From Cyanobium sp. PCC 7001 (GTDB taxonomy: Bacteria; Cyanobacteriota; Cyanobacteriia; PCC-6307; Cyanobiaceae): a DNA stretch of 64,000 nucleotides. The first letter of the stretch is position 1, and each line of letters starts with the position of its first letter. The notes beneath the pieces were generated by a model. That model worked only from the letters and a program-made list of their open reading frames with translations, was not told the origin of the DNA and ran no database searches. A program made the position numbers and the translations under genes. The DNA is taken from assembly GCF_000155635.1 (NCBI RefSeq), contig NZ_DS990556.1, positions 1,471,637 through 1,535,636 on the forward strand, given 5' to 3'. Below are positions 34,874-38,528 of the stretch, piece by piece.

Positions 34874-36433
34874 TCAGGCGCTGCCTTCTGGCGGTTCCGG
34901 CCAGGCGTCATGGGGCACCTGCGCGCGGAACAGGTCCAGCAGGGCCTCGATCACCGCGTCGATGCCCATGCCGTCCGTGACCAGTTCCACCGCATCGTGC
35001 GCCATCCGGAGGGGGGCCACGGCGCGCGTGGAATCCCGGTGATCCCGCTCGGCGATCTGGGCCTCCAGCTCGGCCATGGCCGGCACGGCGAAACCCCGCT
35101 CCCGGAGGTCGTGGGCACGGCGTCTGGCCCGCTCGGCCACGGTGGCGGTAAGGAACACCTTGAGGTCGGCTTCAGGGAACACCGCGGTGCCGATGTCCCG
35201 TCCCTCCGCCACCAGGCCGCCGCGGGTGCCCATGGCCTGCTGCTGGGCCGTGAGGGCGTCCCGCACGCAGCCATGGGCCGCCACGAGGGACACCTCGGCG
35301 GTGACCTCGGGGCTGCGGATGGCCTCGGTGATGTCGTGGCCCTGCAGCAGCACCCGCTGCTCGCTCCCCGTGCCTTGGAAGCCCAGTTGCAGATCCGCCA
35401 GCTGGGGGGCCACCGCCGCGGCATCGGAGCGGTCAACCCCCTGACGCTGCAGCCACCAGGTGACGGCCCGGTACATGGCGCCGGTGTCGAGATACACGAG
35501 GCCGAGCCTGCGGGCGAAGGCACGGGTCACCGTGCTCTTGCCGGCTCCGGCGGGGCCGTCGATGGCAACGATCGGGGCGCGACTCATCAGGAAGGTGTGA
35601 TCGATCAGCCGCGCCGATCCACAGTGGACCGCCGCCGCCAGGACAGACAACCCTGACAGCCGGTGGACCGGCTGCAGGGTGTGGGCTTCGACCCACTGGG
35701 TGTAGTCCACCCGCAGGCCCTGCTCCTCCAGCAGGTTGCGCAGCAGGGTGGCCGGGGGATCGCAACGCTGGGGATCCTGCCGGGCCAGCCGGGCCACCGC
35801 CTCCAGGGCCCTGGGCAGAACCGCCGCCTGCCGCCGCTCCGACGCGCAGAGATAGCGGTTGCGGGAGCTGCAGGGCAACCCATCCGGCTCCCGCACGGTG
35901 CCCACGCCCTCCACCTGAACGGGCAGGCCCAGGTCGGCGATCACCCGGCGCAGGATCACCAGCTGCTGCCAGTCCTTCTCCCCCAGCCAGAGGCGGGAGG
36001 GGCGCACCAGGGCCAGGAGCCGGGCCACCACGGTGGCCACCCCCTCGAAATGACCCGGACGGCACGGCCCGCAGAGGGTCTGGGTGAGGCTGTCCGGCGG
36101 CAGGATCCGGGTGATCGCCGTCACCCCGCCCGCAAACAGAGCCCCAGCCTCAGGAGCGAACAGGGCGGCTGCCCCTGCGGCAGCGGCGCGCTCCACGTCG
36201 GCACCGAGATCCCGCGGGTAGTGCTCGAAATCCTCCCCCGGCCCGAACTGGAGCGGATTGACGAACACGCTCACGAGCACCGGCGGCATTTCACCGGCCC
36301 TGGCCCTGGCGGCGGCCCGGATCAGCGCCCCGTGGCCCCGATGCAGCGCCCCCATCGTGGGCACGAAGTGCAGCGGGGAAGACTGCTGCCGGCGCCAAGC
36401 CCGCAGGGCTTCTGGGGTTTGGAGCAGTTGCAC
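34874..36433 (-). CDS. panC/cmk: Bifunctional pantoate-beta-alanine ligase / cytidylate kinase
   Basis: 519 aa fusion. Residues 1 to about 275 are PanC (VPTMGALHRGHGALI nucleotide site, LGEKDWQQL, and KSRN-like SSRNRYL), which makes pantothenate. Residues about 285 to 519 are Cmk, with P-loop AIDGPAGAGKSTVTRAF and YLDTGAMYRAVTW, which phosphorylates CMP. This fusion is characteristic of cyanobacteria. GTG 36433 is preferred; the TTG at 36448 lies against the rlpA terminator. Confidence 0.95.
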   Translation of the reverse strand: MQLLQTPEALRAWRRQQSSPLHFVPTMGALHRGHGALIRAAARARAGEMPPVLVSVFVNPLQFGPGEDFEHYPRDLGADVERAAAAGAAALFAPEAGALFAGGVTAITRILPPDSLTQTLCGPCRPGHFEGVATVVARLLALVRPSRLWLGEKDWQQLVILRRVIADLGLPVQVEGVGTVREPDGLPCSSRNRYLCASERRQAAVLPRALEAVARLARQDPQRCDPPATLLRNLLEEQGLRVDYTQWVEAHTLQPVHRLSGLSVLAAAVHCGSARLIDHTFLMSRAPIVAIDGPAGAGKSTVTRAFARRLGLVYLDTGAMYRAVTWWLQRQGVDRSDAAAVAPQLADLQLGFQGTGSEQRVLLQGHDITEAIRSPEVTAEVSLVAAHGCVRDALTAQQQAMGTRGGLVAEGRDIGTAVFPEADLKVFLTATVAERARRRAHDLRERGFAVPAMAELEAQIAERDHRDSTRAVAPLRMAHDAVELVTDGMGIDAVIEALLDLFRAQVPHDAWPEPPEGSA

Positions 36434-36446
36434 GGGAGCCCAGGCC

Positions 36447-36476
36447 AAAAAAAACCACCCGCAAGCAGGCGGGTGG
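36447..36476 (-). terminator. Rho-independent terminator of rlpA
   Basis: On the minus strand CCACCCGC (36476-36469) pairs with GCGGGTGG (36462-36455), and eight T follow (36454-36447). It is 45 bases past the rlpA stop and directly before panC-cmk. Confidence 0.93.
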
Positions 36477-36521: not shown

Positions 36522-37040
36522 TCAGCGCAGCACTTCCAGCTTCACCGGAGCCAGACCACTGGCGGTGAGACCCACCTCGGAGGCGGCACCGTGGGCCAGA
36601 TCGATCACGCGGTTGCCGTGGAACGGACCACGGTCGTTGATGCGCACGACGGTGGAGCGGCCGTTGCGGAGGTTGGTCACCCGCACCTTCGTGCCGAAAG
36701 GAAGGGTGCGGTGGGCAGCGGTGAGGGTGCCGCGGCGGAAGCGTTCGCCACTGGCGGTGCGGCGGCCGTAGAAGCCGGGGCCATACCAGCTGGCCTGACC
36801 ACGGATCACCTTGACGACGGCCGGGGTGCTGGTGGCGATGCGCACCGGGGGAGCAATCTGTTGCAGCCCTTCAACCGGTGCGGGAGTGGAGTCGGCGTCA
36901 CGAATGGCCAGAGGGGTGGCTGGGGCAGCCGACGCCACTGACGGGGACTCGGCAGCCCGGGCAGGTTCCGCGATGCCTGGAACCAGGGCGCTGCTGGCGA
37001 GAGTGAGGGCGATGGCCCCGAGCGAGAAGGTTCGGTGCAT
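36522..37040 (-). CDS. rlpA: RlpA-type septal/wall protein
   Basis: 172 aa. The N terminus is a signal peptide (MHRTFSLGAIALTLASSALV, likely cut after EPARA), followed by a variable linker. The C-terminal double-psi beta-barrel has QASWYGPGFYGRRTASGERF and LPFGTKVRVTNLRNGRSTVVRINDRGPF with the catalytic-type Asp in NDRGP. Related RlpA proteins are lytic transglycosylases acting on peptidoglycan at the septum. It lacks a SPOR domain and a lipobox. A structured leader may lie upstream. Confidence 0.9.
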   Translation of the reverse strand: MHRTFSLGAIALTLASSALVPGIAEPARAAESPSVASAAPATPLAIRDADSTPAPVEGLQQIAPPVRIATSTPAVVKVIRGQASWYGPGFYGRRTASGERFRRGTLTAAHRTLPFGTKVRVTNLRNGRSTVVRINDRGPFHGNRVIDLAHGAASEVGLTASGLAPVKLEVLR

Positions 37041-37490
37041 AACAAGCGGAACCCGCTGCAGAACAGCAACCTCGAGAAAGGTTCGAAGGCGTTGGATTCG
37101 CTTGGCCCTGGTTCAGTCTCCGAGAGCGGTGACAGAAACCACCGCGGCCGGATATGGACGTGATTAGCGGCCGAATGGGTAGCGAATTCGCCTGCGGAGT
37201 TCCTGACCAGAAAACAACTGCGCAAAGGTAGTGGCATTTCCACCGGTTTTCTGCCATCGGGATGGAGGCGAAGACTGATCAGTTTTTGTCATCAAACACG
37301 ACTCCCGAGCCCAGGCCTGGGGTTACCCATCCCAGACCCATTCACACTGATCAGCCAGTCCGATCAATGAAATAAGCCACACTGATTCAAGCTTGTGCCA
37401 ATCCAGCGGCTGTCCGGCAGCGGTGGTCACGCCGCAGCCGCCTCCCCCCGGCATCGGAGGATTCCCCCATCACAGACCGGGGTTCGAGGC
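37041..37490. other. Divergent intergenic region between rlpA and purM
   Basis: 450 bases with visibly lower GC than the surroundings and no convincing gene. It contains the nested-stem structure above and two copies of ACTGATCAG (37274-37282 and 37347-37355). Promoters for both rlpA and purM must lie here, but I could not place them. Confidence 0.5.
37187..37272 (-). ncRNA. Candidate structured RNA upstream of rlpA
   Basis: Read on the minus strand, three nested stems occur: TTCGCC (37272-37267) with GGCGAA (37192-37187); CAGAAAAC (37253-37246) with GTTTTCTG (37215-37208); and GTGG with CCAC inside (37243-37240 and 37234-37231). The 3' part, GTCAGGAACTCCGCAGGCGA, recalls the 3' motif of ydaO-type (c-di-AMP) riboswitches, but the 5' half does not match well. 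It could be an rlpA leader element or an independent small RNA. Confidence 0.3.
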
Positions 37491-38528
37491 ATGGATTACC
37501 GCACGGCCGGGGTGGACGTGGCAGCAGGCCGGGCCTTCGTGGATCGGATCCGCTCCAGCGTGGAGGCCACCCACCGCCCAGAGGTGCTGGGCGGCCTGGG
37601 CGGATTCGGCGGGCTCTGCCGCCTGCCGAGCGGCCTCAGCCAACCCTTGCTGGTGGCCGGCACCGATGGTGTCGGCACCAAGCTGGAGCTCGCCCAGGCC
37701 CATGGCCGCCACCATGACGTGGGCATCGACCTGGTGGCGATGTGCGTCAACGACGTGATCACCAGCGGCGCCGAGCCCCTCTTCTTTCTGGATTACATCG
37801 CCACCGGCAGGCTCAGTCCAGAGGCGATGGCCGCGGTGGTGGAGGGCATTGCCGAGGGATGCCGCCAAAGCGGCTGCGCCCTGCTGGGAGGGGAAACGGC
37901 CGAGATGCCCGGTTTCTACGGCCCTGGCCGCTATGACCTGGCCGGGTTCTGCGTGGCCGTGGTGGAGGAGGCCGCGTTGATCGACGGCAGCCGCATCCAG
38001 GCCGGCGATGCGATCCTTGCGGTGGCCAGCAGCGGCGTGCACAGCAACGGCTTCAGCCTCGTGCGCCGGATCCTGGAAGCCAGTGGTGCCACGGCCTCGA
38101 CCCCGCTGCCCGGCAGCGACCGGGGGCTCCTCGACGCGCTGCTGACCCCGACCCGTCTGTATGGCGATCTCGTGAAGGCCCTGCTGAAGGCGCCGGTGCC
38201 CGTGCGGGGCATGGCCCACATCACCGGCGGCGGGCTGCCGGAGAACCTGCCCCGCTGCCTTCCTTCCGGCGTGGAGGCGCGGGTGGATCCGAGCAGCTGG
38301 GAGCGGCCGCCGGTGTTCCGCTGGCTGCAGGCGGCGGGGGAGGTGCCGGAGAGCGACCTCTGGAACACCTTCAATCTGGGGGTGGGCTATTGCCTGGTGG
38401 TGCCTCCGGAGGCCGAGGAGGCTGCGCTCGCCTGCTGCGCGGCGGCCGGCCACGCCGCCTGGCGGCTGGGCGAGGTGCTGGCGGGCGGAGCCGAGGACAG
38501 CTCCGGGATCAGCGGGCTGCCGCTCTGA
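37491..38528 (+). CDS. purM: Phosphoribosylformylglycinamidine cyclo-ligase
   Basis: 345 aa from ATG 37491 ([17 protein letters not shown]). The AIR synthetase motifs are present: [51 protein letters not shown], and [13 protein letters not shown]. It catalyses the fifth step of purine synthesis. Full length for the family. It is not in an operon with other pur genes here. Confidence 0.97.

Follow-up and report, generated by a model that had tools for sequence, protein, structure and literature searches.

The divergent genes rlpA and purM of Cyanobium sp. PCC 7001 are separated by a gap of 450 nt, and the question raised by this locus is what that gap encodes. It lies within the window, the 64,000-nt stretch of DNA analysed here, with rlpA on the minus strand (36522-37040, start codon 37040-37038) and purM, a name carried over from the original prediction, on the plus strand (37491-38528). 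The rlpA product has 172 aa and a DPBB_1 domain (PF03330, E 1.5e-24), and the nearest named records by RlpA protein are from Cyanobium, Vulcanococcus and uncultured cyanobacteria. Downstream of rlpA on the same strand is an ORF of 524 aa (34874-36448) that looks, by eye, like a fusion of pantothenate synthetase with cytidylate kinase. DNA comparison with phage records gave no match. The best reading of the evidence presented below is that the rlpA leader is a new cis-acting structured element with no match in Rfam 15. That the gap forms a structured 5' leader on the minus strand that acts in cis, controlling translation of rlpA through its closing helix (P1), is a more specific proposal, for and against which we consider the chances to be evenly balanced.

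The original prediction had placed a riboswitch-like leader in a set of nested stems at 37187-37272. Perfect inverted repeats do exist there, of 7 bp (37187-37193 with 37266-37272, the claimed 6 bp plus one further pair) and of 8 bp (37208-37215 with 37246-37253), and they lie 147 to 232 bases before rlpA on the minus strand, as described. As a plus-strand RNA, this stretch folds well (z -2.82, with 1 of 200 shuffles as good), and as a minus-strand RNA it folds no better than shuffles (z -0.56, 49 of 200 as good). Since a leader of rlpA must be read from the minus strand, a good fold found solely on the plus strand weakens the case for these stems as its basis. In the nearest relative, whose gap is 77% identical, the outer 3' arm GGCGAA is lost and the 8-bp stem carries one mismatch (rows L011 and L012). 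The choice of gap was nonetheless a good one, as there is a structured rlpA leader in it. The minus-strand segment singled out in the prediction, AGGAACTCCGCAGGCGA, is the 5' strand of that leader, and belongs both to a conserved block and to a larger conserved structure that reaches the rlpA start codon, most of it outside 37187-37272.

The singled-out segment had attracted attention because AACTCCG.AGGCGA resembles the end motif of ydaO-type (ydaO-yuaA, RF00379) c-di-AMP riboswitches. Like the rlpA element these are leader RNAs, and they are known to precede wall-hydrolase genes. A diadenylate cyclase domain, whose presence had been proposed as a check, was found in all 13 genomes searched, that of Cyanobium sp. 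PCC 7001 included, and this too would suit a divergent member of the class. The covariance models gave a different answer. The whole window, scanned with the 4227 models of Rfam 15 at their gathering scores, matched only rRNA and tRNA; the gap at E<=10 matched one miRNA and one lncRNA model, and the upstream regions of 13 relatives at E<=5 matched only miRNA and snoRNA models, all of these far below gathering scores. RF00379 itself occurs in none of 25 genomes of the family, own genome included, as against 6 of 15 other cyanobacteria. Moreover, the resembling segment forms the 5' strand of helices P1 and P2 here, not a 3' end, and the topology as a whole is unlike that of ydaO. A variant of the ydaO class, one of the options offered originally, was therefore rejected as the least credible of all the readings considered. 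In L220 and L221, from other cyanobacteria, the gene that follows a true RF00379 riboswitch looks by eye like an ion transporter, not rlpA.

Relatives' gaps were collected using purM as the anchor, with the upstream DNA drawn from genus and family genomes and from named records to give 113 regions. A block around AGTTCCT is conspicuous in these regions, mostly 277-355 nt before purM. A profile of this block, started from 41 rows and then rebuilt iteratively from what it matched, finds a match at E<=0.001 in 63 of the 113, and on the minus strand the block reads TAnnTTT.C...GTYGT.A.TT...G..AGGAACTCC. Its first part suggests a promoter: the window has a putative -10 element, TACCTT, at 37225-37230 on the minus strand (TAnnTT in relatives, columns 36-41 of the block alignment). 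If TAnnTT does serve as a -10 element, the transcript would start at an invariant G at 37218, which follows the hexamer after a gap of 6 bases and appears as C on the plus strand in 63/63 rows. A sigma-70 scan detected no complete promoter in the region. Between the presumed start and the AGGA described below, GTYGT.A.TT (37209-37218, minus) is also conserved, without a predicted partner. An upstream ORF begun by way of the AGGA was considered and rejected, the rows inspected by eye having no start codon close on its 3' side.

The leader extends on the minus strand from about 37218 to 37041, or some 178 nt in the window, and its consensus fold is a perfect four-way junction, in which P1 closes a domain containing P2, P3 and P4. 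Near the 5' end a GGAAC is complementary to a GUUYC just before the rlpA start, and the two sides of P1 are formed from these elements (all coordinates on the minus strand). The 5' strand, GGAACUC (37197-37203), overlaps a Shine-Dalgarno-like block, AGGAA (37200-37204), whose GGAA makes up its basal part; the 3' strand, GGGUUCC (37048-37054), stops 7 nt short of the rlpA AUG. P2 pairs 37189-37196 with 37084-37091, with a mismatch in the window at 37194/37086, and is followed by P2b (37184-37187 with 37096-37099). P3 is a hairpin of the form AACCU...AGGUU (37068-37083), and P4 another, GCUGU...GCAGC (37055-37067). The spacer between P1 and the AUG (37041-37047) is constant, the first ATG lying at 7 nt in 69 of the 71 rows of alignment A4, and the other two having an earlier ATG at 2 nt in addition to the one at 7. 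The length of the domain closed by P1 ranges from 97 to 156 nt over the same rows. An A before P1 and a GG(A/G)A start to its 5' strand are present in 71/71 rows, which, as for the 7-nt spacer, were gathered with models containing these features; the weakest members (L017, L018 and L021) have AGGAC or AGGAG in place of AGGAA. In 57 of the 71, the second pair of P1 is the weak combination G-U.

Support for this fold from single sequences is mixed. Several of the 19 leaders folded individually share the plan, among them the window, L012, L026, L027, L028, L107, L146 and L150, and those of L113, L136, L015 and L142 differ from it. When 37041-37215 of the window is folded alone on the minus strand, the result is a different fold (z -2.34), and the same stretch folds better on the plus strand (z -3.13). 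RNAalifold proposes P1, P3 and P4 both for 26 aligned leaders (A1) and for the 71 of A4; P2 and P2b were added to the A1 consensus by hand. The history of these alignments bears on what they can show. The initial 62 leaders were picked by patterns that required a start resembling AGGA, an end resembling TTYCG, and GT(T/C)ATG, and A1 comprises 26 of the 62, chosen after inspection of their folds. The covariance model R1 was derived from A1, and so, indirectly, was every later set collected by means of R1. The larger alignments, A3 (46 rows) and A4 (71 rows, 66 of them distinct in the tree-based test), come from selected sources with weaker rows left out, and three leaders that passed E<=1e-6 (L031, L105 and L124) are not in A4.

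Compensatory change across the whole fold supports a structured RNA. In the A1 leaders aligned with MAFFT only, 84.6% of cells are paired, compared to 30-47% with slid partners, and two-sided change is seen in 15 of the 30 pairs. In 66 rows fitted to the model the latter figure is 27 of 30, with 83.5% of cells paired against 29-46%, in an alignment that is biased toward its own structure. An alignment of 66 distinct leaders by sequence only, in stretches delimited by the model, contains 28-31 double compensatory events where about 4 are expected from a tree-based, rate-matched null, and 83% of its cells are paired against roughly 63% in the null; under the same null, the fitted alignment has 38 events against 4.6. 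No null out of 200 was as high as observed. Pair by pair the covariation is modest: 4-5 of the 30 pairs are significant at an FDR of 5% with the tree allowed for (66 leaders), 3/30 with 46 rows and 0/30 with 26, and when all column pairs of the 66 leaders are tested no pair is significant. The signal is strongest in P3. The alignment of relatives, suggested originally as a test, bears out the prediction's option of a new leader element through conserved, covarying pairs across the whole rlpA leader, and comparison of these sequences leaves the predicted four-way junction well supported.

The strand can be judged from the same alignment. Cells of A4 contain 291 G-U combinations and 104 A-C, an excess that favours the minus strand. 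A plus-strand reading, as a small RNA or a purM leader, was considered as the gap folds well in that direction, but was rejected on the G-U excess and on the position of the fold at the rlpA AUG.

Given the patterns by which they were selected, which demand the features of P1, the initial 62 leaders do not test this helix; a comparison that starts from the 5' block alone does. Of the 113 upstream regions, 85 have a usable rlpA match. YYYC-N7-ATG, in frame, is found at the rlpA start in 58 of the 59 loci with the 5' block and in 7 of the 26 without it, counts in which some species appear twice (L022 and L030). In the single miss, L024, the leader does contain the motif, out of frame with the rlpA match used, and five of the seven positives lacking the block (L021, L126, L127, L130 and L176) look by eye like diverged members. 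The features retained are the AGG block, the strand that pairs with it and the spacing to the AUG.

At E<=0.1, R1 has a match in 49 of the 151 family genomes scanned, once in each, and by-eye comparison puts all 49 on the same contig as purM, just upstream of it and on the opposite strand. A wider scan at E<=0.01 matched 97 of 400 family genomes, from 12 of 59 genera, again at one place each save for one assembly with two contigs. Among 291 genomes across the class there were seven matches; one of them, at E 0.005, is outside the family and the other six are within it. R1 matched nothing in many family members with small genomes, nor in one named Synechococcus (L032); since large model searches with strict filters lose weak matches, absence elsewhere is no proof.

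A second group of rlpA leaders was noted in the genus g6 (L105, L124, L137-L139, L142 and, in part, L251-L273). These appear to keep the base of P1 around a different interior. Nineteen of the 25 rows in their alignment (A5) were picked by a pattern demanding AGG(A/G)A and YYYC-N7-ATG, which leaves only the other six as evidence that P1 is kept; six of 25 new loci tried with the pattern did not match.

Other sequences in the gap lie beyond the leader. Two copies of ACTGATCAG (37274-37282 and 37346-37354), 72 bp apart, stand between it and purM, and GATCAG with a following ATCA recurs in relatives; the pair is possibly a regulator or purM promoter element. A GGAGGAT at 37456-37462, similar in relatives, is about 28 nt 5' of the purM ATG and so beyond the usual Shine-Dalgarno distance.

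How might such a leader act? The finding itself is that many species share a conserved, covarying structure ahead of the same orthologous gene, with single pairs that are weak. We infer that it is transcribed with rlpA, that it controls initiation and that the AGGA has a Shine-Dalgarno role. P1 sits where the Shine-Dalgarno duplex normally lies, with a 5' strand that is itself Shine-Dalgarno-like (AGGA or AGGG). The junction could thereby clamp the AGGA next to the AUG, though the two are about 100-160 nt apart in sequence, to make a split ribosome-binding site. Opening of the basal pairs of P1 by the 16S tail, or by another factor, would then set the rate of RlpA synthesis, and repression would correspond to P1 being closed along its full length. 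The full version of this scheme, a chromosomal split site in which a junction of 97-156 nt brings a conserved Shine-Dalgarno-like block from close to the mRNA's 5' end to within 7 nt of the AUG, and in which synthesis is gated as P1 exchanges strands with the 16S tail, is put forward tentatively and is on balance unlikely. The AGG block and the 7-nt rule hold; the AGGA is, however, inside P1, and the energies in the window are unfavourable. There, 7.7 kcal/mol is needed to open the four basal pairs, pairing of the AGGA segment with the 16S tail gains 4.9, and the last 14 nt before the AUG gain 6.7, so that the clamp is not favoured. Over the 71 rows the mean opening cost is 3.7 kcal/mol, with a gain of 4.1 for the AGGA and 3.8 for the local site (last 14 nt), in a calculation that cuts the domain at P1, which favours P1, and requires only the first and last bases to be paired (69/71). 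The genome of Cyanobium sp. PCC 7001 contains two occurrences of a 16S-tail word to which AGGA could pair, and none of a longer word for that tail. The rlpA genes without the block have no obvious site before the ATG by eye either. The junction may deliver the AGGA to the AUG, or it may merely hide the region.

Leader structures at the initiation region also set translation elsewhere, as in E. coli rpsA, where fold and gene differ from those of the rlpA leader. The same is described for T4 genes e, soc and 49 (PMC3014915), again with other folds and genes. Closer to the present proposal are T4 genes 25 and 38, where spacings of 22 and 27 nt are reduced by structure to 5 and 11 (PMC3014915), a distant Shine-Dalgarno being brought to working distance by intervening structure. 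The rlpA leader differs in being encoded by bacterial chromosomes, in using a four-way junction to span 97-156 nt, and in having the AGGA within the outer pairs of P1; moreover, the split-site role was tested in the T4 genes (PMC3014915), whereas for the rlpA leader we infer it. Cyanobacterial structured RNAs have likewise been found by comparative genomics, and those named in PMC2864571 (Cyano-1, Cyano-2, psaA, PhotoRC-I, glnA and Downstream-peptide motifs) are associated with other genes, and those in Rfam have no match here; the words "lipoprotein" and "purM" do not occur in its main text. A search of the open-licence PMC literature on rlpA or Cyanobium together with riboswitches, structured RNA or start sites found no description of this element.

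Control through P1 has to be weighed against several other readings of the same structure. A leader of a new class that senses a ligand or protein, with a factor stabilising the junction so that P1 blocks access of the ribosome to rlpA, would account for a conserved multi-branched fold whose closing point lies immediately ahead of the AUG in a gene for a wall enzyme, and c-di-AMP itself may be the signal, given that the cyclase domain is present. Known aptamer cores, however, have conserved unpaired positions, and inside P1 no unpaired column with at least 50% occupancy reaches 95% conservation over the 71 rows, which makes a metabolite aptamer unlikely; the variable length of the closed domain and the lack of any matching Rfam class also speak against sensing, which we regard as doubtful, though a possibility of some weight. 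Rather less probable is that the structure is maintained because it stabilises the rlpA mRNA or serves RNase processing of its 5' end, and does not control initiation directly. In favour of this are a 5' region held in P1 close to the presumed start and a fold maintained while most of its interior letters change, but by itself this reading leaves the 7-nt distance to the AUG and the kept AGG block unexplained.

The remaining readings do without a leader altogether. A free-standing small RNA, one of the options originally left open, is consistent with a compact fold behind its own promoter-like block, yet the spacing between the end of the fold and the rlpA start codon is fixed, the block and the start-codon motif occur together, and every one of the places checked adjoins purM. 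The sole terminator-like match is weak, since the T tract that goes with P3 is poor and shuffled sequences average 0.5 such matches. All told, a small RNA is quite improbable. More improbable still is the absence of any RNA element, with DNA sites for a regulator and a promoter showing pairing by chance. The conserved -10-like hexamer and GTYGT of the 5' block are compatible with such sites, as is the weakness of single pairs in the strictest test, but, with the structure taken as a whole, compensatory changes are far more numerous than in the tree-based nulls, and the G-U excess fixes a strand.

Returning to the rlpA leader as a new cis-acting structured element, the finding adds a well-supported structured RNA tied to one wall-enzyme gene in a picocyanobacterial group. 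If the proposed clamp is false, this is still a new leader and a handle on RlpA regulation in these organisms. If it is true, a ribosome-binding site would be assembled by the fold of a junction from pieces more than 100 nt apart, and exchange between P1 and the 16S tail would gate the synthesis of a peptidoglycan enzyme.
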